This document shows positions 43,182-60,767 of a stretch of 64,000 bases of DNA, piece after piece (positions within the stretch are counted from its first letter, which is position 1; every line of letters starts with the position of its first letter). The DNA is taken from NCBI GenBank assembly GCA_029258375.1, contig JARHZA010000001.1, positions 1,097,564-1,161,563 of the forward strand, read 5' to 3'. The DNA is from Eubacterium sp. (GTDB lineage: Bacteria; Bacillota; Clostridia; Oscillospirales; Acutalibacteraceae). Position numbers and translations under genes: made by a program. The notes beneath the pieces were generated by a model that was not told where the DNA came from, ran no database searches, and worked only from the letters and a program-made list of their open reading frames with translations.

Positions 43182-46148
43182 TTACACAAATGAACAATTC
43201 CAAACATCAACTGGATTATCTTGAAATACTTTCTTTAGTCTGATATGAACATCTTCTTTTGTTACACCTTTTTTTAATATAACCTGAAGAAAGCCTCCAC
43301 CACCTGCTCCGCAAACAAGTCTTCCATCAATAAGATCATCAATAGAAGCAAAAATTTGATCGATTAGAGTATTTGTACTTCCCTTATCTATTTTTTTACT
43401 TAATTCCCAATGTCTTTCTAATAACATTGCAAACTCATCTATATTTCCACGTTCTAGTTCAAACCTCATTAATGGCGCCATTCTTTGAATCTCGTTGAGT
43501 GCAAATAAACTATCTGGTTCGTTACCAAGATATCTACCAATTACTTCTCTTAATAAATTTCGTGCTAATCTTCTTTGTCCTGTATAAATTAAACAAAATC
43601 TTTCACTTAGTTCTTTTTTTGTTGTTTCACTTATCTCTACATGGTCAACTCTTAGTTTTTGATGAATTGTAGGACCACTTGTTGTATATTTAATACCACC
43701 TGTTACACCACCTACCTGATCTTGCCAACCACCGCCTGTTGACATAATCTGTTCCATAACAAGAACATGAGAATATAGATCATCATCGTTATATTTTATA
43801 TCCATAAAATCAAACATGGCTTTAACACAAGCAGCAGATAATATTGAAGAGGTACCTAAACCACTTCCTTTAGGTACATTTTTAACTTCTGAATGTAACT
43901 CAATTCCTCCGCCTAAACGATTAAGGATTTCAATAAGATTTCCACCCTCAAAAGGTATAATTCCACACGCAAGTAAACACGCTTTTTGCAATGCAAATGG
44001 ATCATTTGGATTTCCTGTATTTTGTAAAGGTTCAATTTCGTAGAATTCACCATGAACATCCATATCACGGCTATCAAATACAATTTTCTTTTCAGGAATT
44101 TTTAAAACAGTAACTTCAACAGGTAATTCACCATTTAGACTAATAGCCGCATTAATAACTGTTCCACCCAATTCACAACAAATTGGAGGTGTATCACTCC
44201 ATCCACCACCCCAATTGACACGAAGTGGAAGTTTTACAACACATTTATCAAGTTTAATTTTACATTTGTCATTATAGTTTAATTCTTTTATTGCCGCATT
44301 ACGTACAGTTTCAGAAATAGTTTGAAGGCAATCGGATATGTATTTATTTCCTTTAACTCCACCAAGTGCAACACCCAAATAATACTGCAATCTAATTTTT
44401 TCATGAAAATCATTTTTCTTAAAGCGATTTTCTAACCATTTTTCTTGGACTTTAGTAAGTGGATGATTAAATTGCAAATACCTAGCAGGTGTTTTTGAAT
44501 GAATCTCTTTTACAATTTCATCCATTTGAACAAGTTCAAGCATTTTTTTATTCCAATCAATTATTGCTCCTGCATCAGCATCGTTAAATGCAGAGCAAAG
44601 TGATTTTCTATTTGCATTCTTCCAAGAAAGTAAATCACCATTATTAGAGTGTAGCAAATTATAAACATTTAATGCAGCTTTTAATGATTCTTTACATGTT
44701 TCGCATTCTGGATACAATTTTGCATCCCACAATGTATGACTATCAGTAGCCCAAATATCTTTTTCATCTATATTAAGTTCACTAAAATATTCATTTAACT
44801 CTTTACCAAATATTTTGCTTTCTTTTGGATTATCATTAACATCATAAATTCTACATATGAACTTGCCATTTTTTTGTTTCAATCCATGTAACACTACATT
44901 ATCAGGGATAATTTCTTCATCAATATCAATATAAGAAAGCAAAACATTATTACCGATTTTTGCTCCACTATGAACATAAGAAACTTCTAAATAACATTTT
45001 TCACCAATTGTTGCATTTCGTGAAAGAATGCTATTATATCCGGCAGTTGATCCTAAGATACTACTGTTAACCTTTGAATTCCAGTCTAATAATTTATAAT
45101 CTTCAACATCACCAGTCATCAAAGACAATATTTCATTTGTTGTTCCAAAATGAATGAACTTTGCCGGCGCAAGACGCAATAACTTCATTCTATATGGACG
45201 TAAAGTTTCCCAAATTTTTGAACGTGCATCTCGAAGTTCTTCACAAAACTTACCTTCAGGAGTTTCAAGATAATAATTTTCTAAAGTAGAATCTTCTGCA
45301 AGTGGATATAAAAAATCACAATACAATGATAATCTAACCGTATCGTTTACATACTTATAATATTTTTCTTCTGTATCTATAAGTGAATATAGACTTTTAA
45401 TGATATCTGGTGCAAATATAATTGCACCTGTGTCTATATCAACGCAATTGTTTTCATTAACAGCACCCATTTTAGTTAATGTTTCAACTGTTTGCTTATG
45501 CATAAATTTTCGAACATTTCCGTTTTCGCCATTTAAAAAAACGCCATGATTTTTACCAATTTCAACATTTTCTTTGAATGAAATAGCACCTGCACCTTTT
45601 CCAGGAAAATCAATTTGAAGTGGATTAAATAATAAAAGAACATCACCTGACAACAAAACCATACCTTCAGTAATTCTTGAAGCAACTGATGACATTGCTA
45701 TTATAAATTCATCAAATAAAGTAGAAGACATTCCGTTTGGAAGCTTATGAGGAACAGGACTAAAAAGCTTACCAATAGCTGAATAATTAGGTACTCGTTT
45801 ACTATCACCACCTGAATGAATTACAAGTATTCTTAAATTATCAAAACTTCCTTTTCCTGTTAATCTTTTTTGTCTTTCAAATATATATTTAATAACTGAA
45901 AGAGTCGCTCCACCAGAACCTACTCTTCGTTCACCTTCATCAGGAATTACAGCAAAATGTGTTTTTTGAGGTAAGTATTCTTTTCGATGATTTAATTGCA
46001 TCCTATAGCCTTCTGCTTGATTTTCGTTTGAAGCAGTTAAGATAACATAATCCCAAACCGGAAAATTTTCCATATTTAATGAGCGGTTATAATCATCCCA
46101 AGTATCTTGATAAGATTGAGATAAAAAAAGTGATGTTAAGTTCTTCAT
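43182..46148 (-). CDS. fkp: Bifunctional L-fucokinase / fucose-1-phosphate guanylyltransferase
   Basis: 988 residues, near the 949 of the Bacteroides Fkp. The N-terminal ~600 residues form the pyrophosphorylase: RRVGSGGATLSVIKYIF (nucleotide loop, about residue 72), LVIHSGGDSKRVPNYSAIGK and a beta-helix tail (GSTAGYNSILSRNATIGEK). The C-terminal ~370 residues are a GHMP kinase: RVNWGGGWSDTPPICCELGG (about residue 640), PKGSGLGTSSILSAACVKAM and VCGAGGGGFLQVIL. It should phosphorylate free fucose and form GDP-fucose for fucosyltransferases. It opens the polysaccharide locus behind a GGAGA ribosome site. A related heptose or arabinose substrate cannot be ruled out. Confidence 0.88.
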   Translation of the reverse strand: MKNLTSLFLSQSYQDTWDDYNRSLNMENFPVWDYVILTASNENQAEGYRMQLNHRKEYLPQKTHFAVIPDEGERRVGSGGATLSVIKYIFERQKRLTGKGSFDNLRILVIHSGGDSKRVPNYSAIGKLFSPVPHKLPNGMSSTLFDEFIIAMSSVASRITEGMVLLSGDVLLLFNPLQIDFPGKGAGAISFKENVEIGKNHGVFLNGENGNVRKFMHKQTVETLTKMGAVNENNCVDIDTGAIIFAPDIIKSLYSLIDTEEKYYKYVNDTVRLSLYCDFLYPLAEDSTLENYYLETPEGKFCEELRDARSKIWETLRPYRMKLLRLAPAKFIHFGTTNEILSLMTGDVEDYKLLDWNSKVNSSILGSTAGYNSILSRNATIGEKCYLEVSYVHSGAKIGNNVLLSYIDIDEEIIPDNVVLHGLKQKNGKFICRIYDVNDNPKESKIFGKELNEYFSELNIDEKDIWATDSHTLWDAKLYPECETCKESLKAALNVYNLLHSNNGDLLSWKNANRKSLCSAFNDADAGAIIDWNKKMLELVQMDEIVKEIHSKTPARYLQFNHPLTKVQEKWLENRFKKNDFHEKIRLQYYLGVALGGVKGNKYISDCLQTISETVRNAAIKELNYNDKCKIKLDKCVVKLPLRVNWGGGWSDTPPICCELGGTVINAAISLNGELPVEVTVLKIPEKKIVFDSRDMDVHGEFYEIEPLQNTGNPNDPFALQKACLLACGIIPFEGGNLIEILNRLGGGIELHSEVKNVPKGSGLGTSSILSAACVKAMFDFMDIKYNDDDLYSHVLVMEQIMSTGGGWQDQVGGVTGGIKYTTSGPTIHQKLRVDHVEISETTKKELSERFCLIYTGQRRLARNLLREVIGRYLGNEPDSLFALNEIQRMAPLMRFELERGNIDEFAMLLERHWELSKKIDKGSTNTLIDQIFASIDDLIDGRLVCGAGGGGFLQVILKKGVTKEDVHIRLKKVFQDNPVDVWNCSFV

Positions 46149-46601
46149 AACTATTCTCCAGTCTTTTTCAAATAATTATTCCACAAAAAATTATATAATC
46201 GTATAATTAAAACAAGATAAACAACAAATTAGATTAATAATTAAGATTTTGTAAAAATTCCTATACAAAATACCATAATTTAATATATAAAGTAAAAATA
46301 TATAACTTAAATATACACGCACGCTTATATCATAACATGTAAACGCTTTTTTTTCAACAAACAATTTAATGTTATTTGTATTATTTCGCTAAATTATTAT
46401 GTTTTTTTAGTGTATTTTCAACAACTTTCGTTTTAGTGGTAACAATATTGAATTGAATTATTCTTAATTCAAAGTAAAAAATTTTTTTAAACAAGCATGC
46501 CTAAAAAAAACAAATAAATAAAAAATTTTTATAAAAATCTTGTCACTTTTTGTTGGTTATAATACTCTTATATATGAAATCAAATTTCAAGGAGTATAAT
46601 A
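46149..46601. promoter_or_regulatory. Divergent regulatory region between the polysaccharide locus and the MBOAT operon
   Basis: 453 bases without a gene. It contains TGTAAACGCTTTTT at 46338-46351, which agrees with 12 of 14 bases of the CcpA cre consensus; an inverted repeat with arms TTGAATT (46448-46454) and AATTCAA (46466-46472); and minus-strand TATAAT elements near 46190 that could start the fkp transcript. No small gene or RNA family was recognised. Confidence 0.5.
46540..46568 (+). promoter_or_regulatory. Promoter candidate of the MBOAT-SGNH-sigma-antisigma operon
   Basis: TTGTCA (46540-46545) and TACTCT (46563-46568) with a 17-base spacer; a TATAAT at 46558 overlaps. No clear ECF-type AAC/CGTC pair was seen. 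A perfect inverted repeat (TGAAAT-CAA-ATTTCA, 46575-46589) follows immediately before AAGGAG. Confidence 0.45.
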
Positions 46602-48017
46602 ATGGTTTTTAGTAGTCTTGAGTTTATTTATATTTTTCTTCCTATCTTTTTGATATTTTATTATATATTTCCGAGTAAATATAGGAATGCTTTGCTTTTT
46701 CTTGGAAGCATAATTTTTTACTCTGTTGGTACTTTAGATCATCCCTTATACATTCTCCTAATGATCGCTTCAATTTTAATTAACTATGTTATTGCATTAG
46801 GATTAGAAAAAACTAAAAAATCAAGTAAATTTTTACTTACAATTGGTATAATTTATAATTTTGGTTGGTTATTTGTTTTTAAATACTCAGATTTTTTATT
46901 CACTGGAATAAACTCAGTAATAAAAGCATTTTTACCAAATCAAAACTTTTCAATTCCACTTTGGAACTTAATTTTACCAATTGGTATAAGTTTCTATACA
47001 TTTCAAATTGTGTCATACTTAGTTGATGTTTACAGAAAAACATGCCCTGCTGAACATTCAATCATAAATCTTGGAACATATATCTGTATGTTTCCTCAAC
47101 TAATTGCTGGACCAATCGTTACTTATAACTCAATTAGAAAACAACTTACAAAAAGAACATATTCTATTGATAAAGTAAAATCTGGTATAGAGTATTTTAT
47201 TTTAGGACTTGGCCTTAAAGTTCTTTTAGCGAATCCGCTTGGAAGTATATGGTCTGATGTTACAAACATTGGATTTGAAAGCATATCAACACCACTTGCT
47301 TGGATTGGAATAATTGCATTCTCTTTTCAAATATACTTAGACTTTTTCGGATATTCCTTAATGGCAATTGGACTTGGTCATTTGCTTGGTTTTGATTTAC
47401 CAGAAAACTTCAATCATCCATATATATCAAAAAGTATGACAGAATTTTGGAGAAGATGGCATATTACTCTTGGAAGTTGGTTTCGTGAGTATGTTTACTT
47501 TCCACTTGGTGGTAGCAAAGAAGGAATTTTGAAAACAATTAGAAATCTATTAATTGTTTGGATGTTTACCGGCTTGTGGCACGGAGCTCATTTGAACTTC
47601 CTTCTATGGGGATTTTTACTTTTTACTATTATCACTTTAGAAAAAATCTTCTTAAAGAAGCAACTTGATAAATACCCTATTATTGGGCATTTATATATGA
47701 TATTACTCATACCATTGAGTTGGGCTATTTTTGCAATAACAGACATAAATCAACTCGTTATATTCTTTGGAAGACTATTTCCATTCTTTAGTCAAACAGG
47801 TGAAATTATAAATCAATTAGACTACTTGAAATACTTACAAAACTTTGGCTGGTTGTTGATACTTGGACTTATATTTTCTACTAAACTCCCACTTAAAATA
47901 TATAATAAGATTAAAGATAAGCCACTTGGAATTATTTTACTAATTGCAATTTTTTGGGGAGCAACGTACTGTATGTACATAGGTCTTAATGACCCATTTT
48001 TATATTTTAGATTTTAA
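46602..48017 (+). CDS. MBOAT-family O-acyltransferase (AlgI/PatA-like)
   Basis: 471 residues with about 11 membrane helices. FIYIFLPIFLIFYYIFPSKY at the start, the FPQLIAGPIVTYNSI loop, TEFWRRWHITLGSWFREYVY-type motif and WHGAHLNFLLWG (the second His is the expected catalytic residue, about residue 330) are family hallmarks. Such proteins move acetyl groups from inside to outside the membrane. Paired with the SGNH protein that starts 12 bases downstream it resembles the AlgI-AlgX or PatA-PatB systems that O-acetylate polysaccharide or peptidoglycan. AAGGAG lies 9 bases before the ATG. Confidence 0.93.
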   Translation: MVFSSLEFIYIFLPIFLIFYYIFPSKYRNALLFLGSIIFYSVGTLDHPLYILLMIASILINYVIALGLEKTKKSSKFLLTIGIIYNFGWLFVFKYSDFLFTGINSVIKAFLPNQNFSIPLWNLILPIGISFYTFQIVSYLVDVYRKTCPAEHSIINLGTYICMFPQLIAGPIVTYNSIRKQLTKRTYSIDKVKSGIEYFILGLGLKVLLANPLGSIWSDVTNIGFESISTPLAWIGIIAFSFQIYLDFFGYSLMAIGLGHLLGFDLPENFNHPYISKSMTEFWRRWHITLGSWFREYVYFPLGGSKEGILKTIRNLLIVWMFTGLWHGAHLNFLLWGFLLFTIITLEKIFLKKQLDKYPIIGHLYMILLIPLSWAIFAITDINQLVIFFGRLFPFFSQTGEIINQLDYLKYLQNFGWLLILGLIFSTKLPLKIYNKIKDKPLGIILLIAIFWGATYCMYIGLNDPFLYFRF

Positions 48018-48029
48018 GGAAGTATATTT

Positions 48030-48911
48030 ATGAATAAAAAAGATTCTAAATCAATTGATTCTAAAACTATTGTGATAATTTTTATAATATGTTTTTTTAT
48101 AGCACTTCCGTTTGTTGTAAAGGGGTTTGCTGATAATTACGTAAAAGAAAACGAAGAAGAAGTTGAAGAAGAAATAACAACTTCTGTTGTAGAAACAACA
48201 ACTGAAAGCACAACGGTAACTACGACCGAATCAACAACAGAATCTACAACAAATAAACCAGAAACAACTAATTCAAAAAAAGAAACAACTAAGCAATCAA
48301 CAACTAAAAAAGGAAAACCTTCCTCTTCTAAATCAGATTTATCGTTTTTTGATGACGCTTTGTTTATTGGAGATTCAAGAACAGTAGGTTTATCTGAATA
48401 TGGTGGTTTAAATAATGCAACTTTCTTTTCTACTGTTGGAATGAGCGTATACAACATACATAAAACAACCGTTTCTATTCCTTCTGTTGGTAAAGTTCAT
48501 CTAAATGACTTGTTGAAAAAAAAGAACTATGGTAAAATATACGTCATGCTTGGCATAAACGAACTGGGGTATGATTTCAATAAAACAGTAAATAAATTTG
48601 GAGATTTAATAAAAGAAATTAAATCTCTACAACCTAATGCAATTATTATTATTGAAGCAAACCTTCACGTTACAAAAAGTAGATCTGATTCAGATAAAAC
48701 AATCAATAACAAAAATATAAATCGTTTCAACCAAGCAATAAAAAAGTTCTCTAATAATAAAGATATTTTTTATATTGATATAAATGAAGTTTTTGACGAT
48801 AAAAATGGCAACCTCCGTGCTGATTACACAAATGACAACACACATGTATTTGCTAAATATTACAAAAAGTGGGGCGAATGGCTAATTTCTAAATCCGTCA
48901 AATTCAAATAA
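48030..48911 (+). CDS. Membrane-anchored SGNH/GDSL-type esterase or acetyltransferase
   Basis: 293 residues. A signal anchor (about residues 13-32) is followed by a Thr/Ser/Glu-rich linker (about 38-100, with repeated TTTEST motifs) that probably spans the wall. The SGNH domain has block I IGDSRTVGL (Ser about 115), MLGINELGYD (block III) and NDNTHVFAKYY (Asp/His). Next to an MBOAT protein it is the likely extracellular transferase (PatB-like) that places acetyl on the glycan. The low-complexity Thr linker also explains the long Val/Ser-rich frame on the opposite strand, which is not a gene. Confidence 0.88.
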   Translation: MNKKDSKSIDSKTIVIIFIICFFIALPFVVKGFADNYVKENEEEVEEEITTSVVETTTESTTVTTTESTTESTTNKPETTNSKKETTKQSTTKKGKPSSSKSDLSFFDDALFIGDSRTVGLSEYGGLNNATFFSTVGMSVYNIHKTTVSIPSVGKVHLNDLLKKKNYGKIYVMLGINELGYDFNKTVNKFGDLIKEIKSLQPNAIIIIEANLHVTKSRSDSDKTINNKNINRFNQAIKKFSNNKDIFYIDINEVFDDKNGNLRADYTNDNTHVFAKYYKKWGEWLISKSVKFK

Positions 48912-48932
48912 CAGAAACGGAAAGAGAGTTGA

Positions 48933-49433
48933 TTGCATTTGAAAGATGATAAAGAATGGTTTTGTGATTCCATTCAGACTTATCAAAATAGTATGTACAC
49001 CTTAGCAATCGGAATTCTTAAAAATGAAGATGACGCACAAGATGTTATTCAAGAAACAATATTGAAAGCCTATTCAAACTTGGACTCATTAAGAAATAGA
49101 AACAAATTTAAACAATGGCTAATGCAAATTTTAGCAAACACGTCTTACGAATTAATTCGTAAAAGAAAACCTACATCAGATATCGATGACCAATGGGATT
49201 TGCAAGAACCGGAAAAAGGAATTGATATTTCAACAAAACTTACTCTTCGTGAAACAGTAGAATCTCTACCAGTAATTTATAGAACAGTAATCATTTTGTT
49301 TTACTATGAAAATATGTCTGTAAAAGAGATTGCCGTTATAACTAATACTCAACCTGTTACAGTTAGACAACAATTACTAAGAGCAAGAAAGCTTTTAAAA
49401 GAGCGATTGTCAAAGGAGATCTTAGAATTATGA
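48933..49433 (+). CDS. ECF-type RNA polymerase sigma factor (SigV-like by context)
   Basis: 166 residues. Region 2 (MYTLAIGILKNEDDAQDVIQ and ETILKAYSNLDSLRNRNKFK, about residues 23-65) and region 4 (LPVIYRTVIILFYYENMSVK, EIAVITNTQPVTVRQQLLRA) are intact and there is no other domain, as in ECF sigma factors. TTG start at 48933 after AAAGAGAG. Its stop overlaps the anti-sigma gene by 4 bases. The partner carries the RsiV-type C-terminal domain, so this is probably the sigma-V branch, which responds to lysozyme in Bacillus and Enterococcus. Confidence 0.93.
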   Translation: MHLKDDKEWFCDSIQTYQNSMYTLAIGILKNEDDAQDVIQETILKAYSNLDSLRNRNKFKQWLMQILANTSYELIRKRKPTSDIDDQWDLQEPEKGIDISTKLTLRETVESLPVIYRTVIILFYYENMSVKEIAVITNTQPVTVRQQLLRARKLLKERLSKEILEL

Positions 49434-50347
49434 TTTATTTTGATAAGAAAATAAAAAAATATGCAAATAATAACAAACCAGAAATACCAGAATCAGTTGC
49501 AAAAGCCATACAAAGCACTCTTGATTCTTTGCCTGAAAAAAATACAAATGCTGCGACTTTACATATAAGACAAAAAAATACACATTATCGTTCTGCTTTA
49601 GCAGTTGCTTGTTTTGCACTTGTATTTACATTTTTTGTTTTACCAAACCTAAACCCAAACATAGCTTATGCAATGGAAAAAATTCCTGTTTTAGGAAAAG
49701 TTGTTCATGTAATTACTATTAAAAATTACAAATATTCTGATCCATATCACGAATTGAACGTTGACGTTCCTTCAGTAAACATAAAAGACGAAGAAAATTC
49801 TAATAACGAAGAGGCAGAAAAATATATAAATGCAAGTGTAGAAGAACTTACTAATTCGCTTATGGATGAATTTTATAAAAACGTTGACGAATTAGGTGTT
49901 TCTCGTTTTTCATTAAACGTTGATTATAATGTTATTTCTAATAACGATAAGTGGTTTACACTTAGAATTTGCGTTTCTACAAGCACAGGCAGTGGCGACA
50001 CATATTACAAATTTTATCATATAGATAAAACAAGTGGACAAATAATTACACTTGGTGATATATTTGAAAATAACAATCAAAGTTTGAAAAAAATCAGCAA
50101 AGAAATTAAACGTCAAATGAAAAAACAAATGGCAGAAAATGAAAACGTTTCTTATTTTCTTGACGCTGAATTTGAAGAATGGGAATTTACAAACATTGAC
50201 AAAGATCAAAACTTTTATTTTGCAGATAATGGTAATTTAGTTATTGTATTTGATAAATATGAAGTTGCGCCTGGTTCAATGGGTACACCAGAGTTTGAAA
50301 TTAACAAATCTATATATGAAAATTATTTAAAACAAGAATACAAATAA
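49430..50347 (+). CDS. RsiV-like membrane anti-sigma factor (DUF4179-like plus DUF3298)
   Basis: 305 residues. A cytoplasmic N-terminus (1-54) that can bind the sigma factor precedes one membrane helix (about 55-72). Then follow a DUF4179-like segment (AMEKIPVLGKVVHVITIK) and a C-terminal DUF3298 domain (FYHIDKTSGQIITLGDIF; FYFADNGNLVIVFDKYEVAP). RsiV of B. subtilis binds lysozyme through this region and is cut first by signal peptidase. Here the sequence NIAYA-ME (Ala79-Tyr80-Ala81) just outside the helix is a fitting signal peptidase site. It overlaps the sigma gene by 4 bases and ends the operon. Confidence 0.88.
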   Translation: MIYFDKKIKKYANNNKPEIPESVAKAIQSTLDSLPEKNTNAATLHIRQKNTHYRSALAVACFALVFTFFVLPNLNPNIAYAMEKIPVLGKVVHVITIKNYKYSDPYHELNVDVPSVNIKDEENSNNEEAEKYINASVEELTNSLMDEFYKNVDELGVSRFSLNVDYNVISNNDKWFTLRICVSTSTGSGDTYYKFYHIDKTSGQIITLGDIFENNNQSLKKISKEIKRQMKKQMAENENVSYFLDAEFEEWEFTNIDKDQNFYFADNGNLVIVFDKYEVAPGSMGTPEFEINKSIYENYLKQEYK

Positions 50348-50457
50348 AAGCCTTTTTATTTGTGTTTAAGCAACGTTCTATTAAATATCTTTAGTAAATA
50401 ACAAGCTGAAATGTATCATAACGTATAAAATTGTAGATAATTATTTAATAAAAAAAC

Positions 50458-50490
50458 AAAAAAACTCCTGATATTTATCAGGAGTTTTTT
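50458..50490. terminator. Bidirectional intrinsic terminator
   Basis: ACTCCTGATA and TATCAGGAGT pair around TT, flanked by A and T runs, between the convergent anti-sigma and GH26 genes. Confidence 0.9.
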
Positions 50491-50492
50491 CA

Positions 50493-51656
50493 TTAACTAT
50501 AGATGTTAAGTTCATCAAGCGTTATTGAATTGCCATTATCATAAACTGCTTTTAATTCCTCTTTTGTACTACACATCTCACTATATTCCGGTGTTAGAAT
50601 TTTATTACCTTCTTTATCTTCTTCATACACACAAACAAATTCTCTGCACCAAGTACAAAATAGCAACCATTTTGCATTAGTCTCAAACATTTTATCAACA
50701 TTTGGAACAAAATCATTTTCAGACATTGCGATCATCTTATTTGATGAAGTTTTTATATTTTGATTGAATCTCTTTACATTTGACGAATCATTTAAATATG
50801 CTTTTCTATCCTTATTAAAATATGGATCATCTGCAACAATATCGCATTTATCATCGCCAACATACCATTTTGGATTTTGACCATTATAAACCCAAATTAG
50901 ATTATTTAAATTATGATAATTAGTCATTCTATCATACATAATATTCCACAGTTCCTTATAAGCATTTGGACCAGTTGCTCCCCACCAGAACCAACCACCT
51001 GCGGCTTCGTGAAGCGGTCTCCATAACACTGGAACACCTGCATCTTGTAGAATTTTTAACTGCTCAGCAATTGCATCAATATCTTTAATAAGACCTTTAT
51101 ATTGCTCAGAATCTTTGTTTTTAAGTGTTTTCTTTAAATTGAATTTAGTATTTTCAGTATAGAACGCTCTGCCCTTTCCATCAAAATTATCAACATTCCA
51201 GTGCCAACAAATTGTAACTATTCCACCGTTTTTGTGCCATTCAATTGCCTGTTCAATAGTAAAACATTTTGCATCATATTCTAAGCCTGAGACGTCAAGA
51301 CCAATAACTGCTGGATATTTCCCTGTTACACTATGCACTGCCTGCAACTCGTTAGATTTAAAAACCGTTGATGGACTATTTTCATCGCTTGGATTTACTC
51401 TATACTGTGGCAAGCTAAAATCATCATATTCATTAACATACTGACCAGTTAAAACTTTTTTACCATAAATACTTTTTAGATATTTCATGAGTTCTTTTGC
51501 TTCTTCGGTGGCATTATCATTTATCAAATCAGATGTTGCGACTGTATAATCAATTTTGTTAACAACTGGTTTTTGATTTAGTTTGCAAAAGACACCAATA
51601 AAAACTATTAAAAAAACAATAAAAATAGAAAACACAATTACAAATCTTTTTTTCAT
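50493..51656 (-). CDS. Membrane-anchored GH26 endo-beta-mannanase-type hydrolase
   Basis: 387 residues. N-terminal signal anchor (about residues 4-24) without lipobox, then a full GH26 barrel: KKVLTGQYVNEYDDF, VIGLDVSGLEYD, GGIVTICWHWNVDNF, LWRPLHEAAGGWFWWG (acid/base Glu) and MIAMSENDFVPNV (nucleophile Glu). The family mostly cleaves beta-1,4-mannan and also some beta-1,3-xylan or beta-glucan; the substrate here is not certain. Single gene, no carbohydrate-binding module or cell-wall signal. Confidence 0.9.
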   Translation of the reverse strand: MKKRFVIVFSIFIVFLIVFIGVFCKLNQKPVVNKIDYTVATSDLINDNATEEAKELMKYLKSIYGKKVLTGQYVNEYDDFSLPQYRVNPSDENSPSTVFKSNELQAVHSVTGKYPAVIGLDVSGLEYDAKCFTIEQAIEWHKNGGIVTICWHWNVDNFDGKGRAFYTENTKFNLKKTLKNKDSEQYKGLIKDIDAIAEQLKILQDAGVPVLWRPLHEAAGGWFWWGATGPNAYKELWNIMYDRMTNYHNLNNLIWVYNGQNPKWYVGDDKCDIVADDPYFNKDRKAYLNDSSNVKRFNQNIKTSSNKMIAMSENDFVPNVDKMFETNAKWLLFCTWCREFVCVYEEDKEGNKILTPEYSEMCSTKEELKAVYDNGNSITLDELNIYS

Positions 51657-53244: not shown

Positions 53245-53363
53245 ATTTAAAATCTGTTTAATTGTTGAAATGATTTGTTTAAATGTTGACTATGGGAAAT
53301 ATGGTAATGTTATGTCGAATAAAGTTGTTGAAAATCAATATTTGCAAAGGCAGGTTTTTGTGG

Positions 53364-54737
53364 ATGAATATTTTGCAACTCGATGAATTTGAGATTCTTA
53401 ATTACTATATTGACGACGATGATAACAGATGTTTTGATGTTGTCCCTGTTAATGTTCCTAAATTATGCCCATATTGTCATGAATATGGAGTTGTAAAAAA
53501 TGGAACAATTGACCGTATGTTTAAAGATTTAAAAATACTTGATAAATATACATATATAATCGTTAAAGACAACCGATTTAAATGTCCTACTTGAAACAGA
53601 ACCTTCGTTCAAGAATTTGACTGTATTGATAATAATGCTAAAATTACCAAAAGCTTAAATTAGCGGCACAAAAGAGATCTCTTGAAAGGACTTTGCAGTC
53701 TGTTGCGAATGAATATAATTTTTCAAACGCTACTGTTTATAATATTAGCAGAGAGTATGGTGCTCAAAAAGAAAAAGAGAGAATTAAATATTTTCCTAAA
53801 GTTTTAGGTGTAGATGAGGCACATTTGAACAAAGCTATGAGAGGCTTTTTTGTTGATATTGAGAAACACGGCATAATTGGAATATTGCCCTCTCGAAGTA
53901 AAGAAAATGTAATTCAATATTTTGAGTCATTGCCAAACAGAAAAAATATAAAAGTCGTTACGATGGATATGTGGTGACCATATAAAGAGGCAGTTGAACT
54001 TTGCTTACCAGATTCTCATATTGTTATAGATAGATTTCATGTTGTTAAAATGGCAAATTAAGCGTTAGAAAAACTAAGAAAAACAATAATGAAAAAAACT
54101 TCATCAAGAAGTGAAATAAAGTCTATTAGAGATAAGCGTTGGCTACTTTTAAAAAGATATGAAAAACTCAGTAAAGAAGACGAAGACGACCTTATGAAAC
54201 TATTAGTATATTATCCAGAAATTCAAGAAACCTATTTAGCAAAAGAAAATTTCCTATCAATTTATGATGCCCTCTACAAGAGCACAAGCTGAATTTACTT
54301 TTGAAAAGTGGGTTGAAGGCTTGAGCACAAAATGCAAGACTTTATATTCAGCACTTATTAAAACAGTTAAAAACTTTCACAAAGAAATATTCAATTATTT
54401 TGACTACACCTATACTAACGGAATTACTTAGTCTTTGAATAATACTATAAAGTCAATAGAATAAATGAGACGAGGCTATTCGTTTGAGATGCTTAGGGCT
54501 CGTGTTTCATATGGTACATCAGCAACCAAAAAAGCTAAATATGGAACAACTAAAAAGAAGCCTGCATATCATCCTATAATTTCTAGTTTTATAACAAAGG
54601 CAATCCCAATAATTGATGTAGATGCACCTGTATTACTGCATGGTGATTATGTTGTTATTGATGAACTAATGAATTTATATAGGAAAAATATTAAACAATT
54701 TTGCTGTTTTAATACTTTTGAAATTAAGAACCTATAA
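53364..54737 (+). pseudogene. ISL3-family transposase, decayed
   Basis: The region encodes, in pieces, a complete ISL3-type transposase of about 455 codons: an N-terminal CPYCHEYGVVKNG zinc motif, SVANEYNFSNATVYNISREY (helix-turn-helix), VLGVDEAHLNKAMRGFFVDI, VTMDMW-PYKEAVELCLPDS, IVIDRFHVVKMAN, FTFEKWVEGLS, and SLNNTIKSIE plus RRGYSFEMLRARV at the C-terminus. Lesions seen: TGA at 53592, frameshift near 53650, TGA at 53975, TAA at 54059, frameshift near 54277, TAG at 54429 and TAA at 54462. It is therefore an old inactive insertion sequence. Clear terminal inverted repeats or target duplications were not found. Confidence 0.9.
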
Positions 54738-55635: not shown

Positions 55636-57177
55636 TTATTTTGTTCCTAATTTCTTCTTAATTTTTTCTTGTCTTTTAATCCATTGTCTTGTTGAAAAAT
55701 CTTTGAATTTTTTGTTTAGTTTAATTACAAATATTTCAATTTTAGAGTATTTGGGAATTTCAACAGTTTTTTCATATGCTATAAATTGCTCTAAATATGG
55801 AGTACTTCTGCATTCTGTGATTTTTAAAACTACGCCATCGGCCTTAATTTCATCAAACAAAGCAATTTTTTTATAACCAATGATTGTACCATCATATATT
55901 TTTGTTTGTGTTCCGTTAAGTGTTGCAAATAGTGAAAATCTTTCAACTCTCTGAGAAAAATCGCATTGTTCCTTTAAAACCACCTTATCAATTGTTTTAG
56001 GCTCTACGAATTTTAAAGAAACTGTATATACATCGTTTTCTGCCTTTGGTGCATAGCAAGTATCGTCTTGATTTGTGCAGTTAATTGCATCAAAGCCATT
56101 TTCAAATTCGTCTGCATCAACATCTTTAACGCTGACAGGATCGGCGAAAATTTTGTTTAAAATTTCGCCCATTTCTTTGAGTCTATCAACATCTTGAGGT
56201 GAATATAGTCCATTCTTATTTGGTGGAACATTTAACAACAGTAAACTATTACCACCAACCGATGTAAAATATATATTCATTAAATTTTTAAGTGAACGGA
56301 TTTTAGAATCTTGATTTTTATGATAGTACCAGCCAGGTCTAATTGAAACATCAACCTCGGCAGGATACCAAATAAATTCATTATAGTTTGAGAGTACTTT
56401 TCTACTACCTAAATCTTCTTTTGATGGGTCTGAAATTTGCATTTTTGAGCCATCGTCATCTTGTTGTGATTTATCTGCAATATCTTGTGTATTAAACTGT
56501 ACACTTGGCACTACATTCCATTCGCTTTCTCTAGCAAATCCACCCTCATTACCAACCCAACGCACATCCGGTCCACAATTAGAAATGCAAGCATTCGGTT
56601 GCAATTTTCTAATTGTTTCATATATTCTTGGGAAATCATATTTTTGTGCTGGCTTACCGTCCATGTATGAACCACAAGCACCATCAAGCCATACGCAGAA
56701 AATTTCACCATAATTTGTTAATAGTTCTGTAAGTTGTTCCATATAAAAATCATTGTATTTAGGTGTACCATAATATTCACTATTTCTATCCCAAGGAGAT
56801 AAATAAATGCCAAATTTCAAACCGAATTTTTGACAAGAGTCACTTACTTCCTTTACAACATCACCATTACCTTTTTTATACGGTGTGTTTTTGACAGAAT
56901 ACTCTGTTGTTTTTGTAGGCCACAAGCAAAATCCATCGTGATGTTTACATGTTAGAATCACGCCTTTAGCTCCTGCTACTTTGAGAGCCTTAATCCATTG
57001 GTCTGTGTCTTGACACGTTGGATTAAAAACATCAAGAGAAACTTTTCCATTTCCCCATTCATCACCAGTAAACGTATTTAAGCCATAACTAATCATGGCA
57101 TTAAATCCCATTTCTTGATATGCTTTTTGTCGTTCACTAGGCGTAATTTTTATATAATCATAAACATTGTTTTTCAT
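55636..57177 (-). CDS. Alpha-L-fucosidase, glycoside hydrolase family 29
   Basis: 513 residues. The barrel contains YQEMGFNAMISYGLNTFTGD, GAKGVILTCKHHDGFCLWPT, GLKFGIYLSPWDRNSEYYG and IFCVWLDGACG, where Asp165 is the expected nucleophile. The C-terminal ~130 residues are a beta-sandwich. No signal peptide is seen, so it acts inside the cell or is released by lysis. It removes alpha-linked fucose. It is the third gene of the GH35-sulfatase-GH29 operon, 27 bases after the sulfatase. The fucose released could feed the Fkp enzyme at 43182-46148. Confidence 0.95.
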   Translation of the reverse strand: MKNNVYDYIKITPSERQKAYQEMGFNAMISYGLNTFTGDEWGNGKVSLDVFNPTCQDTDQWIKALKVAGAKGVILTCKHHDGFCLWPTKTTEYSVKNTPYKKGNGDVVKEVSDSCQKFGLKFGIYLSPWDRNSEYYGTPKYNDFYMEQLTELLTNYGEIFCVWLDGACGSYMDGKPAQKYDFPRIYETIRKLQPNACISNCGPDVRWVGNEGGFARESEWNVVPSVQFNTQDIADKSQQDDDGSKMQISDPSKEDLGSRKVLSNYNEFIWYPAEVDVSIRPGWYYHKNQDSKIRSLKNLMNIYFTSVGGNSLLLLNVPPNKNGLYSPQDVDRLKEMGEILNKIFADPVSVKDVDADEFENGFDAINCTNQDDTCYAPKAENDVYTVSLKFVEPKTIDKVVLKEQCDFSQRVERFSLFATLNGTQTKIYDGTIIGYKKIALFDEIKADGVVLKITECRSTPYLEQFIAYEKTVEIPKYSKIEIFVIKLNKKFKDFSTRQWIKRQEKIKKKLGTK

Positions 57178-57204
57178 TGTAAATTCCTTATTAAATGAAT
57201 AAAA

Positions 57205-58662
57205 TTATTTAATTATATTCTCATTTTTTATTTTATAAATTTCTTGTTCTAATTCCTTACGGATTTTTGAATTCTTTTTTGCAAGATTCTTTCTCTCGCC
57301 TATATCATCTTTTAAGCAGAATAATTGAGTATAAAATCTTGAACCAGTATCAATTCCTTTTTCTAAGAAAAATGGAGTATCATGGTCAGATTCAATATAA
57401 ATCCAATCTTTTTTTCTTAAAATACTAGTATCGTTATAGCCTTGAGCATATAACACATCCCTGCCTTTTTGCGATTCCCCCATAAGGACTGGCAACAAGT
57501 TTTGACTATCTTTATTAGGAATTTCTGTATTTAACATTGCTGCAAAGGAATTGAGTAAATCTACTTGACTGATTACTGAATTACTAACACAAGGAGTCAC
57601 TTTACCTTTATAACTAAATATAAATGGTATTCTGATTCCGCCGTCATATTTACTATATTTACCACCACGAAGTGGTCCTGTTGGTCTGTGATTTCCATTA
57701 AGTACTCTAGCTTTATCTGCATAGCCATCATCTAAAATAGGTCCATTATCACTTGAAAAAATAACAATTGTGTTATCTAACAAATTATGTTCTTTTAATT
57801 TATCCATAATTTCACCAACACACCAGTCCATTTCGGCAATAACATCGCCTCTGGCACCTAATTTTGTTGCACCTGCAAATTTCTTAGAAGGTAATCTTGG
57901 AACATGAGGCTGATGTAAAGCATAAAACAAGAAAAATGGATTGTTTTTATTTTCATCTACAAATGTTTTTGCTTTATCTAAGAATGTCTGAGCTAAATCT
58001 TCATCCTTCCAAAGAGCAGACTTGCCGCCTTTCATAAATCCGATTCTACCAACACCATTCACGATAGCATTATTGTGACCATGAGAAGCTCTTAGCTTTA
58101 ACAAGTTTTTATTTTTCTTTCCCGTAGGCAACTCTGGGAACGGGTTCTTTTTGCAATACTGAACTTCTATTGGATCATTTTCATCAAGATTAACAACATT
58201 TCTACCGTCAAAATAAACACAAGGTACTCTGTCTGCAGTTGCTGGGAAAATAAAACACTCATCAAATCCTACATCCAATGGAGTATGGTCAATTGGTTTA
58301 TTCCAATCAATTGGTTTTTCACCATCACTAAGCCCTAAATGCCATTTACCAACTAATCCTGTATGATATCCATTATCTTTAAATAATTTTGGAAGTGTAT
58401 AGCAATCTTTTTCAATTAGACATTTTGCATCACCAGGTAAAATCTTAACATTGTTATGTCTACATGGATATAAACCAGTCAATAATGAAAATCTTGCTGG
58501 GGTACAAACGGGACTTGTTGAGTACGCATCTGTAAATCGAATACCGTCTTGACAAAGTGAATCAACATTAGGTGTTTCAATATCAGATGCTCCATAACAG
58601 CTTAAATCCCCATAGCCTAAATCATCAGCATATATAATTACTACATTTGGTTTTGAATTCAT
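57205..58662 (-). CDS. Type I sulfatase (S1 family, Cys-type)
   Basis: 485 residues from ATG 58662, eight bases after AGGAGG (the open frame reaches 58683). NVVIIYADDLGYGDLSCYGA (metal-binding Asp pair), SPVCTPARFSLLTGLYPCRH (Cys53 in CxPxR is the residue converted to formylglycine), GLVGKWHLG and IVIFSSDNGPILDDG are family signatures. It removes sulfate esters from sugars. In an anaerobe activation needs an anSME radical enzyme, which is not in the window. No signal peptide. The placement between a galactosidase and a fucosidase suggests a sulfated galactose or GlcNAc of mucin-type glycans as substrate. Confidence 0.95.
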   Translation of the reverse strand: MNSKPNVVIIYADDLGYGDLSCYGASDIETPNVDSLCQDGIRFTDAYSTSPVCTPARFSLLTGLYPCRHNNVKILPGDAKCLIEKDCYTLPKLFKDNGYHTGLVGKWHLGLSDGEKPIDWNKPIDHTPLDVGFDECFIFPATADRVPCVYFDGRNVVNLDENDPIEVQYCKKNPFPELPTGKKNKNLLKLRASHGHNNAIVNGVGRIGFMKGGKSALWKDEDLAQTFLDKAKTFVDENKNNPFFLFYALHQPHVPRLPSKKFAGATKLGARGDVIAEMDWCVGEIMDKLKEHNLLDNTIVIFSSDNGPILDDGYADKARVLNGNHRPTGPLRGGKYSKYDGGIRIPFIFSYKGKVTPCVSNSVISQVDLLNSFAAMLNTEIPNKDSQNLLPVLMGESQKGRDVLYAQGYNDTSILRKKDWIYIESDHDTPFFLEKGIDTGSRFYTQLFCLKDDIGERKNLAKKNSKIRKELEQEIYKIKNENIIK

Positions 58663-58682
58663 TTTAAATACCTCCTGATACA

Positions 58683-60767
58683 TTAAGACTTAATTGATTT
58701 TATTACAATTTGTTTAGCACTAATCAATGTTAACTTATTTGAATATAACGGAATCTCTACATCATTGAAAACATTTGATATTCCGAATTTTGTTTTAGGC
58801 ACTACTTTTATAGTAAGTTTGTTATTCCTGTTTAAATATTCCTTGTAATCTCTTAATCTCATAACAAAGTTTTTATCTATATTAAAGTAATCATTTATAA
58901 TTGTATCTCCGCTAAAAACTTGAAGATTTAATCCTTCAAAATCAAAATGCAATTCAATATCATAATAGTCTTCAATAATGTTTTTAGGCAATTCAAGTTC
59001 ATAATATACTCGTTTACCTCTCGAATAAAGATAATAGTCATATGGTAGTTTTTTCTTGTTACACTTCTTTAGTGTGAATTTATCTGTAATATCATTTGTT
59101 CTTTTTTCGCACCATATTATGTTATCATCTTTCCAAACATTTCCATCGTTAAAATAAACTTTATCATTAAAGCAATAAAGTGTTTTGGCAACCTCTGTTG
59201 GTAAAACTATAATTCGAACATTATCAATCAATATACCATCTTTATCAATTGGTAATTCAATCTTTTTACCATTTGTAACACAGTATGGAATAACGCCACT
59301 TATTTCTTGAAAATAACATACAATTTTGTTGCTTTTTTCCTCTTTTGCTATTGGCTGTGCCAAAATGTAATCAAATTTGTTATTACCTATGATAATATTG
59401 AATGGATAAAAGAACATTGACTCTGCTTTTACATCAATTTTAGGCAAATAGATCGTATTATTTAGCGTTTGAATTGTAACATTTACATCCTTAAAATCAT
59501 CAAATTTAATTGCTTTTTCATAACTATTCAAAAAGACGTAACCACTTTCATTTTCATCCATACGAACAGAGCACCTCGGAAAAGATACATCGTTAGAGTC
59601 CATTGAAGGCCATTTGGGGAAGAATGCTTGTTTTGTGCAAAACTTCTCATCAAACTGTGTAGCAAATAAATGCAAAAGTCGTAGCATATGACCATGTTCA
59701 CGCACATCTCCATATTTACTGATTGGTGCTTGGAAATCATAATCAATAATTGGATAGTTGTTAGGGTAACCTGTTTTCTTGCTTTCTTGCATAGGCTTAT
59801 AGTTTGGATTGCTACCACCGACAAACATATAGTATCCTTGTAAATTGACGCCGCTTGCTAATTTTGCAAAGCCAACACCATATCCATCCTTTGCGTTAAT
59901 AAGCGGTCTTCTATGTTGTGTTGGTTGTACTCCGGATCCAATTTCACAAGTAGCATATGGGATATTTTTAAATGAGTGTTCATCAATCTCGTTATTTTCA
60001 ATTAAGTCCGTTCCGATTTCTTCAGCTGATTTGCCAGGTAGTATTGCAAAACGATTGTTTGGTTTTAAAGCTTTCTTGCCATGAGTCCATGGTGCATCAG
60101 GATATCCACCAAACATTGGCAAAAAATCATTATCAGGAATACCAGTAGGCCAGGCTGTCATTGTGAAAAACGGCGTTTTAAATCCAATTTCTTCAGCAAT
60201 TTTTCTAAGTTCCTTTAAATGAGTCACAGGTCCACTATATTCATTTTCAAGCTGTATTCCAATGATAGTTTCACCATCTAAAAATGGTTTTACCTCTTTA
60301 TAAACGCCTTCCCAATATTCATAAACTTCTTTCAAATACTTTTTATCATTTGTACGAATTTTTTTCATTCTGACGATTCGTTTTGGAAATCCACCATAAA
60401 CAACCTCACCATGACACCAAGGACCAATTCTTAATATTACAGGTAAATCTAACTCTTTACAAATAGTTAAGAAATCAGAAACACTTTTATTTTCTGACCA
60501 ATCAAATTCGCTTTTAATTTCTTCATGATAATTCCAAAAAACATATGTCGAAATAGCATTTAAGCCCAATGCTTTCATTTTTAAAAGAGTTTCTCTCCAT
60601 CTATATTTAGGTAGCCTTGAAAAATGAATCTCGCCAGTAACCATCATAAATGGTTCTTCATTTTTTGTGAAATATTGTGTATTTACACCAAAAGAACTCT
60701 CAATATTAGAGTAATTAAAATGACCTTTATCAACTGATCTATGTTTTGTTGTAATTTTAATATCCAT
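58683..60767 (-). CDS. Beta-galactosidase, glycoside hydrolase family 35
   Basis: 694 residues. MMVTGEIHFSRLPKYRWRET, LKMKALGLNAISTYVFWNYH, ILRIGPWCHGEVVYGGFPKR, IGIQLENEYSGP (acid/base Glu, about residue 174) and YATCEIGSGVQP (nucleophile Glu, about residue 275) form an intact catalytic domain, followed by beta-rich domains. It removes terminal beta-galactose. No signal peptide. First gene of the operon behind the promoter at 60813-60841; AGGT precedes the ATG. Confidence 0.94.
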   Translation of the reverse strand: MDIKITTKHRSVDKGHFNYSNIESSFGVNTQYFTKNEEPFMMVTGEIHFSRLPKYRWRETLLKMKALGLNAISTYVFWNYHEEIKSEFDWSENKSVSDFLTICKELDLPVILRIGPWCHGEVVYGGFPKRIVRMKKIRTNDKKYLKEVYEYWEGVYKEVKPFLDGETIIGIQLENEYSGPVTHLKELRKIAEEIGFKTPFFTMTAWPTGIPDNDFLPMFGGYPDAPWTHGKKALKPNNRFAILPGKSAEEIGTDLIENNEIDEHSFKNIPYATCEIGSGVQPTQHRRPLINAKDGYGVGFAKLASGVNLQGYYMFVGGSNPNYKPMQESKKTGYPNNYPIIDYDFQAPISKYGDVREHGHMLRLLHLFATQFDEKFCTKQAFFPKWPSMDSNDVSFPRCSVRMDENESGYVFLNSYEKAIKFDDFKDVNVTIQTLNNTIYLPKIDVKAESMFFYPFNIIIGNNKFDYILAQPIAKEEKSNKIVCYFQEISGVIPYCVTNGKKIELPIDKDGILIDNVRIIVLPTEVAKTLYCFNDKVYFNDGNVWKDDNIIWCEKRTNDITDKFTLKKCNKKKLPYDYYLYSRGKRVYYELELPKNIIEDYYDIELHFDFEGLNLQVFSGDTIINDYFNIDKNFVMRLRDYKEYLNRNNKLTIKVVPKTKFGISNVFNDVEIPLYSNKLTLISAKQIVIKSIKS

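Follow-up and report, generated by a model that had tools for sequence, protein, structure and literature searches.

Closest described systems

In the literature surveyed (PMC9044953 and PMC12148441), lysozyme-induced acetylation of the Gram-positive cell wall goes by way of OatA. The sigma-V/RsiV/OatA systems of Bacillus subtilis and Enterococcus faecalis pair an extracytoplasmic function (ECF) sigma factor with a DUF3298 anti-sigma factor carrying a transmembrane segment and an AXA cleavage site. The present analysis concerns a four-gene operon at 46602-50347 (+ strand) of a 64,000-nucleotide stretch of DNA from Eubacterium sp., a gut-type bacterium (contig JARHZA010000001.1; the whole stretch is called the window below), which shares these regulatory elements, has a promoter of similar general layout and presumably also has wall acetylation as its output. 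It differs from the sigma-V/RsiV/OatA systems in that an unfused pair, an MBOAT acyltransferase and an SGNH protein, lies 5' of the sigma gene in OatA's stead, in its TGTCAC -35 box, in the alteration of several lysozyme-contact residues, and in a sensor that scores under the RsiV cut-off.

Two other known systems bear comparison. In the csfV (sigma-V)/RsiV/PdaV system of Clostridioides difficile, lysozyme-resistance effectors are likewise encoded or controlled together with the sigma factor and RsiV (PMC9044953), but these effectors are a deacetylase and LbpA, whereas those of the window would be an acetyltransferase pair. The Gram-negative PatA/PatB system resembles the window pair in having an MBOAT with a conserved His and a C-terminal FXYXXF Tyr, and a separate SGNH partner; PatA places acetyl on this Tyr of its own, and the acetyl-Tyr is then used by PatB (PMC12148441). 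Unlike PatA/PatB, the window operon has no third, Ape1-like gene, is tied to a sigma/anti-sigma pair, and is found in Bacillota. A literature search that covered few subscription journals found no paper joining an MBOAT with RsiV.

We consider it on balance probable that the operon is a self-contained, autoregulated, lysozyme-induced cassette for wall O-acetylation of the sigma-V/RsiV type, in which the MBOAT/SGNH pair replaces OatA. Its architecture, recurrence and conserved promoter are well supported and wall-glycan acetylation is the likely output, while the signal, the acceptor and the acyl group are those that we infer. An earlier, sequence-only reading of the same DNA as a lysozyme sensor joined to an acetylation device is thus partly supported.

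The operon and its genes

The four co-directional open reading frames (ORFs) encode, in order, the MBOAT, the SGNH protein, the ECF sigma factor and an RsiV-like anti-sigma factor. Intergenic gaps of 12 and 21 bases separate the first three genes, and the sigma and anti-sigma frames overlap by 4, in agreement with the sequence-only reading, whose gene identities are all borne out by Pfam matches. The sigma start is ambiguous: it is the TTG at 48933 or the one at 48939, which comparison with relatives suggests and which would widen the gap to 27. All four are genuine genes and appear to form a single operon.

The MBOAT (46602-48017, + strand, 471 amino acids) matches PF03062 at 6.1e-29, with His327 in a WHGA motif and a C-terminal FLYFRF (FXYXXF, residues 466-471) that includes Tyr468; its nearest solved structures are of DltB (8jem, E 2.2e-20, and 6bug, E 3.7e-20). 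The SGNH protein (48030-48911, + strand, 293 amino acids) matches Lipase_GDSL_2/SGNH in Pfam (2.7e-14) and has Ser116, Asp269 and His272; a hydrophobic anchor, placed by eye at about residues 13-30, is followed by a Thr-rich linker (residues 37-105, 29% Thr) and then by the SGNH domain. The linker that the earlier reading described is therefore present; that it spans the wall we can only infer. Comparison of folds with a model of the SGNH protein does not distinguish a transferase from an esterase. Sequence features of a PatA-type pair are present, namely an MBOAT family member with a conserved His and a C-terminal FXYXXF, and an SGNH partner with Ser-His-Asp. The FXYXXF end recurs in 27 of 27 operons of the same gene order (the window counted), the MBOAT His motif in 26 and the SGNH catalytic motifs likewise in 26. 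The fusion of AT3 to SGNH that marks OatA is not seen, the MBOAT and SGNH protein being separate genes; three AT3-matching frames, of 362, 364 and 275 amino acids, lie elsewhere in the genome.

The sigma factor (48933, or 48939, to 49433, + strand) matches the Pfam sigma-70 r2 (1.7e-13) and r4_2 (2.5e-14) families. The anti-sigma factor (49430-50347, + strand) consists of a cytoplasmic part, a transmembrane segment, the AXA site and a DUF3298 ectodomain (residues 82-305), and its C-terminal domain aligns to DUF3298 (PF11738, 4.6e-22), an alignment on which the earlier reading had staked its case, at 79.2 bits against a Pfam cut-off of 24.1. Matches of operon proteins to PdaC and DUF4179 fall under the Pfam cut-offs. 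The genome (1.72 Mb in three contigs) has this one DUF3298 match in all. It also holds two more MBOATs (L077 and L078, on contigs C2 and C3, in frames of 527 and 529 amino acids), neither ending in FLYFRF, and two polysaccharide deacetylase genes (L082 and L083, at G000:C3:235612-235971 and G000:C2:149375-149716), neither near the DUF3298 gene, which are possible further lysozyme defences.

Recurrence in relatives

When a collection of named genomes was scanned with an RsiV alignment, 405 of 423 pattern hits proved to be relatives, and the analysis covers the best 80 of these. The exact order MBOAT-SGNH-sigma-RsiV was found in 26 of these 80 and the swapped order sigma-RsiV-MBOAT-SGNH in three more; Amedibacillus dolichus DSM 3991 (L107) is among the carriers. 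The four-gene order, for which the sequence-only reading had proposed a search in other genomes, is hence not unique to this one, and a chance arrangement was rejected on the strength of the 26. The pair is thus a second, unrelated set of enzymes repeatedly wired to an RsiV-type sensor, mostly in Clostridia, and the promoter together with the four genes provides a DNA signature by which such operons can be found.

Closer to the window, the RsiV model matched in 63 of the 394 genomes searched in the order and in 62 of the 300 in the family. Among 40 regions around the stronger matches, the exact order occurs in three (L039, L046 and L051), apparently the same loci as L094, L099 and L096, and two others (L052 and L068) have the order SGNH-DUF4358-sigma-RsiV-MBOAT. 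These last two, with L040, L069 and L072, form a second sigma/RsiV-like branch that goes with SGNH-DUF4358 sets; one genome, G124, has both operon types (L039, with MBOAT/SGNH, and L040, of the DUF4358 type). Separate RsiV-like ORFs of about 220 amino acids lie near the sigma-RsiV pairs of L036, L038, L041, L111 and L152, and are possibly ectodomain-only lysozyme binders like the LbpA of C. difficile.

Within the genus, the anti-sigma factor was found in one of 36 congeners searched (G004), and another congener, G702, has the full operon (L192, apparently the same locus as L088). G004 and L088 share the sizes of their flanking ORFs (1178 and 632-635 amino acids), which the window does not have. 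An MBOAT match is far commoner, occurring in 44 of the 60 genomes of the genus with the window's own counted. Of 15 congener MBOAT loci, 14 are without sigma and RsiV genes (L192 is the exception), a DUF4358 gene adjoins the MBOAT in nine of the 14, and DHHW/ALGX-type proteins lie downstream in all three that were scanned (L193, L202 and L203). The MBOATs of these DUF4358/MBOAT/DHHW-type sets are related to that of the window, up to 50% identical outside G702, and 14 of the 15 loci have the FLYFRF end, L205 ending in FIYFNF; the window operon differs from such sets in having neither DUF4358 nor a DHHW/ALGX protein.

Swapped effectors and the RsiV tree

The place of the pair is taken by other enzymes in some relatives. 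An OatA-like AT3 protein, recognised by the Pfam match of its AT3 domain, holds the effector slot in L136 (597 amino acids) and L144 (651 amino acids), which agrees with the earlier statement that the pair stands where OatA would be. A polysaccharide deacetylase with Ig-like domains, an effector type also known from C. difficile, occupies the slot inside the window's own branch in L119 (by Pfam) and in L117 and L120 (by our own profile). None of the effector types sought was found in the sigma-RsiV run of 54 of 121 loci, a count that wrongly includes L139 (MBOAT/SGNH) and L144 (AT3), so that linkage to an effector is by no means general.

A tree was built from 106 RsiV-like proteins, the 121 rows less 15 near-duplicates, fragments, fusions and odd ones. 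The window falls within a set of 37 rows (SH-aLRT, the Shimodaira-Hasegawa-like approximate likelihood ratio test, 97), 27 of which have the MBOAT/SGNH pair, and the canonical Bacilli and the DUF4358-type sets fall in other starred sets. The pair is found on further branches as well (L126 and L137/L139), and its label, carried by 30 rows, requires 10 changes on the tree. G004 groups with L088, and the window stands apart from them with L084 as its nearest relative.

Promoter

A sigma-V-like promoter, TGTCAC-N17-ACTCT, lies at 46541-46568 (+ strand; -35 TGTCACTTTTT, -10 ACTCTT), with 33 bases between its end and the MBOAT gene. The full window copy is TGTCACTTTTTGTTGGTTATAATACTCT, with ACTC at the -10 as in L116. 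Among 25 upstream regions of adequate length (24 relatives and the window), most have TGTCACCTTTT and C(G/A)TCT upstream of the MBOAT gene, at nearly fixed spacing and 57-93 bases 5' of the start used. A strict form of the pattern matches 14 of the 25 regions and a loose form 22, the latter including one misplaced match (L094, at -131, the true site of which is in the strict list). In 200 mononucleotide shuffles the strict form matched a mean of 0 regions (maximum 0) and the loose form 0.5 (maximum 3), and the opposite strand gave 0. By eye, L102 and L107 are one -35-box base short of the pattern, the promoter of L107 being of a TGTCCC/CGTCT type; L098, the start of which is misassigned, has no match. 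The self-contained design put forward in the sequence-only reading thus gains a conserved promoter of the operon's own, which is probably autoregulatory.

The exact pattern is single in the window, where up to two mismatches give 7 sites against 5.15 expected. The genome has no second exact copy, and with at most one mismatch it has 9 sites (the true one included) against 13 for a reversed-pattern control, on which basis a wider regulon using this motif was rejected. A scan for sigma-70-type promoters gave 16 sites, fewer than in shuffles (28.8).

The -35 box differs among branches. In 12 of 19 Bacilli, Clostridium-type and Peptostreptococcaceae-type loci, AACTTTTT and CGTC precede the sigma gene, a type derived from the sequences of these same loci since a literature search for a printed sigma-V consensus gave nothing useful. 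A sister branch of the RsiV tree has TGAAAC in 8 of 14 rows, as does L133 outside the tree. The window's branch has TGTCACC, even where the effector is a deacetylase (L119) or the sigma gene stands alone (L103 and L105); a TGTCAC-type promoter precedes the L119 deacetylase and a TGAAAC-type promoter the AT3 gene of L136. In L136 (1312-4606) there are two sigma-V-type promoters, one 5' of the OatA-like AT3 gene and the other 5' of the sigma gene. The recognition helix of the sigma factor also differs between the TGTCAC set (29 sigma factors) and the TGAAAC set (8). The columns that separate the two sets are many, the best 16 of them separating fully, and they track relatedness, so that no single residue can be blamed; a joint change of helix and -35 box may be read from this as a lead only. 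At 13 DUF4358-type loci, a looser promoter pattern fitted to one such locus matched only 2, and a AACTTTTT/CRTCT promoter, chosen after the data had been seen, occurs at 8.

The sensor

The solved structure closest to the anti-sigma factor is that of the RsiV-lysozyme complex (5JEN, chain 5jen_A, E 8.5e-31). A predicted signal-peptidase motif, Ala79-Tyr80-Ala81 (49664-49672, + strand), precedes Met82 and corresponds to Ala64-Gln65-Ala66 in B. subtilis RsiV, to which the site and the stretch that follows align without gaps. In the 27 RsiVs of exact-order operons, the first Ala of this motif is retained in 26 and the second in 15, the latter being otherwise Thr in 6, Val in 2, Ser in 2, Glu in 1 and Asp in 1. 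The genome has a RasP-type protease (218 bits over two pieces, cut-off 147.55) and one type I signal peptidase.

How far the lysozyme interface is conserved was assessed by sequence comparison alone, at 17 contact or tested residues taken from PMC5014341. The window protein retains six (S168, T171, Y255, E256, P259 and G260). Ten of the 17 are changed, and K137 lies in a gap. The changes at S169 (now Gly), Y261 (Ser) and H139 (Arg) weigh against a lysozyme-sensing RsiV, as does a score of 234.6 bits for the NCBIfam RsiV equivalog, which has a cut-off of 250. For comparison, L126, with the same four-gene order, scores 267.3 bits and L107 243.8. Since the sigma factor is also below its cut-off (116.8 bits against the SigV equivalog, cut-off 190), we name the regulators sigma-V-like and RsiV-like. 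Several of the positions changed in the window vary among 14 Bacilli too, yet there H139 is His in all 14 and S169 is Ser in 13. Lysozyme seems to us the most likely signal for the operon.

Proposed mechanism

By homology, the RsiV-like protein would keep the sigma factor at the membrane when no signal is present. Lysozyme, most likely, would bind the DUF3298 ectodomain, whereupon signal peptidase would cut after Ala79-Tyr80-Ala81 and a RasP-type protease would complete the cleavage, freeing the sigma factor; the site and both protease genes are present. The freed sigma factor, as the strong conservation of the promoter suggests, would then read the site at 46541-46568 and transcribe its own operon. 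If the pair works as PatA/PatB do, the MBOAT would pass acetyl from acetyl-CoA to Tyr468 of FLYFRF, and the anchored SGNH protein would accept it on Ser116 and transfer it to wall glycan, most likely peptidoglycan. The acetylated glycan would resist lysozyme.

Alternative acceptors and signals

Several other readings, the likelihoods of which are not mutually exclusive, concern the acceptor. With the same sensor and switch, the pair might acetylate, instead of peptidoglycan, a secondary polymer of the wall, either secondary cell-wall polysaccharide or teichoic acid, and B. cereus PatB1, an SGNH acetyltransferase, does act on secondary cell-wall polysaccharide (PMC6174289); the SGNH fold match does not tell such acceptors apart. 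We think this rather unlikely, peptidoglycan being favoured because OatA-like and polysaccharide-deacetylase genes, known relatives of which act on peptidoglycan, occupy the same slot elsewhere. The capsule, which the sequence-only reading had offered as a possible acceptor, is a weakened candidate. The polysaccharide locus that it placed divergently next to the operon is there, its first gene, 453 bases upstream, encoding an FKP-type fucose enzyme, and alginate in Pseudomonas is acetylated by MBOAT/SGNH-type proteins (PMC4148444). The locus is, however, transcribed away from the operon and has no exact copy of the promoter, and among 151 flanking ORFs of at least 100 amino acids fetched from the 26 exact-order relatives, none of the 26 has a neighbour resembling any of 21 window polysaccharide genes, although the same test is positive for the window operon and for a few other loci. 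The locus therefore looks incidental, and with this control working the capsule was rejected as the principal acceptor, a role we regard as very improbable. Still less credible is D-alanylation of teichoic acid by a DltB/DltD-like pair, despite DltB being the nearest solved structure to the MBOAT. The NCBIfam DltB model gives 138.4 bits against a cut-off of 375, the operon contains no dlt-type partner gene (no search for dltA or dltC was made in the genome), and the C-terminal FXYXXF belongs to the MBOAT itself, as in users of acetyl-CoA (PMC12148441); the low DltB score and the missing partner within the operon led us to reject it.

A different signal is compatible with either acceptor: the sensor of the window's branch may have shifted to another muramidase or to some other envelope stress, with general wall acetylation as the output. 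Of the 27 exact-order RsiVs, no more than 11 have Tyr at position 261, where 8 have Ser, 6 Ala, 1 Val and 1 Cys, while the 14 Bacilli have 13 Tyr and 1 Phe there; at position 169 the 27 have 17 Ser, 8 Gly and 2 Thr, and at position 139 they have 19 His, 6 Tyr, 1 Arg and 1 Lys. The window is also on a separate starred branch of the RsiV tree, and Rv1980c is a case of a DUF3298 protein showing that lysozyme binding is not universal (PMC5014341). On the other hand, all 27 have Y255, P259 and G260, and 24 of them have S168; the damaging substitution S169W is bulky, and Gly is small; and B. subtilis RsiV Y261A still binds lysozyme (10 nM), with weaker sigma-V activation (PMC5014341), so replacement of Tyr261 alone does not exclude lysozyme. 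We consider such a shift unlikely, if only slightly more so than a secondary polymer as acceptor. The RsiV-like sensors with their varied lysozyme-contact loops do form a natural set for testing the choice of ligand.

Returning to the lysozyme-induced cassette, we put forward, as a speculation that is doubtful when all its parts are taken jointly, that it is a mobile response on one RsiV branch, regulatorily insulated from ordinary sigma-V. The effector would have become MBOAT/SGNH, and the -35 box would have changed from AAC(TTTTT) to TCACC(TTTT) along with the sigma recognition helix. The loop entering the lysozyme active site would have been remodelled (Tyr261 to Ser, Ala and others, 16 of 27), so that a different set of muramidases is sensed, and the cassette would have passed between Clostridia and Erysipelotrichaceae, apparently entering the window's genus more than once.

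Neighbouring features

Between the operon and a convergent GH26 gene, a hairpin with a T-run (50455-50494) reads as a terminator on both strands; in the scan it was called on the minus strand alone (one site, against a mean of 1.1 in shuffles), and its plus-strand form, CTCCTGATA..TATCAGGAGTTTTTT, was read directly from the sequence. On the other side, the first gene of the polysaccharide locus (43182-46148, - strand) encodes the FKP-type bifunctional enzyme (Fucose_pyrophosphorylase, 1.1e-90, and GHMP kinase), which suggests that salvaged fucose enters a surface glycan. At 55636-60767 (- strand) alpha-L-fucosidase, sulfatase and GH35 genes follow in series and would be expected to degrade mucin-type glycans of the host, their presumed substrate. 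Two short ORFs at 53283-53977 (+ strand) match parts of an ISL3-type transposase, its zinc ribbon and the beginning of its DDE domain, and are apparently pieces of an insertion sequence.

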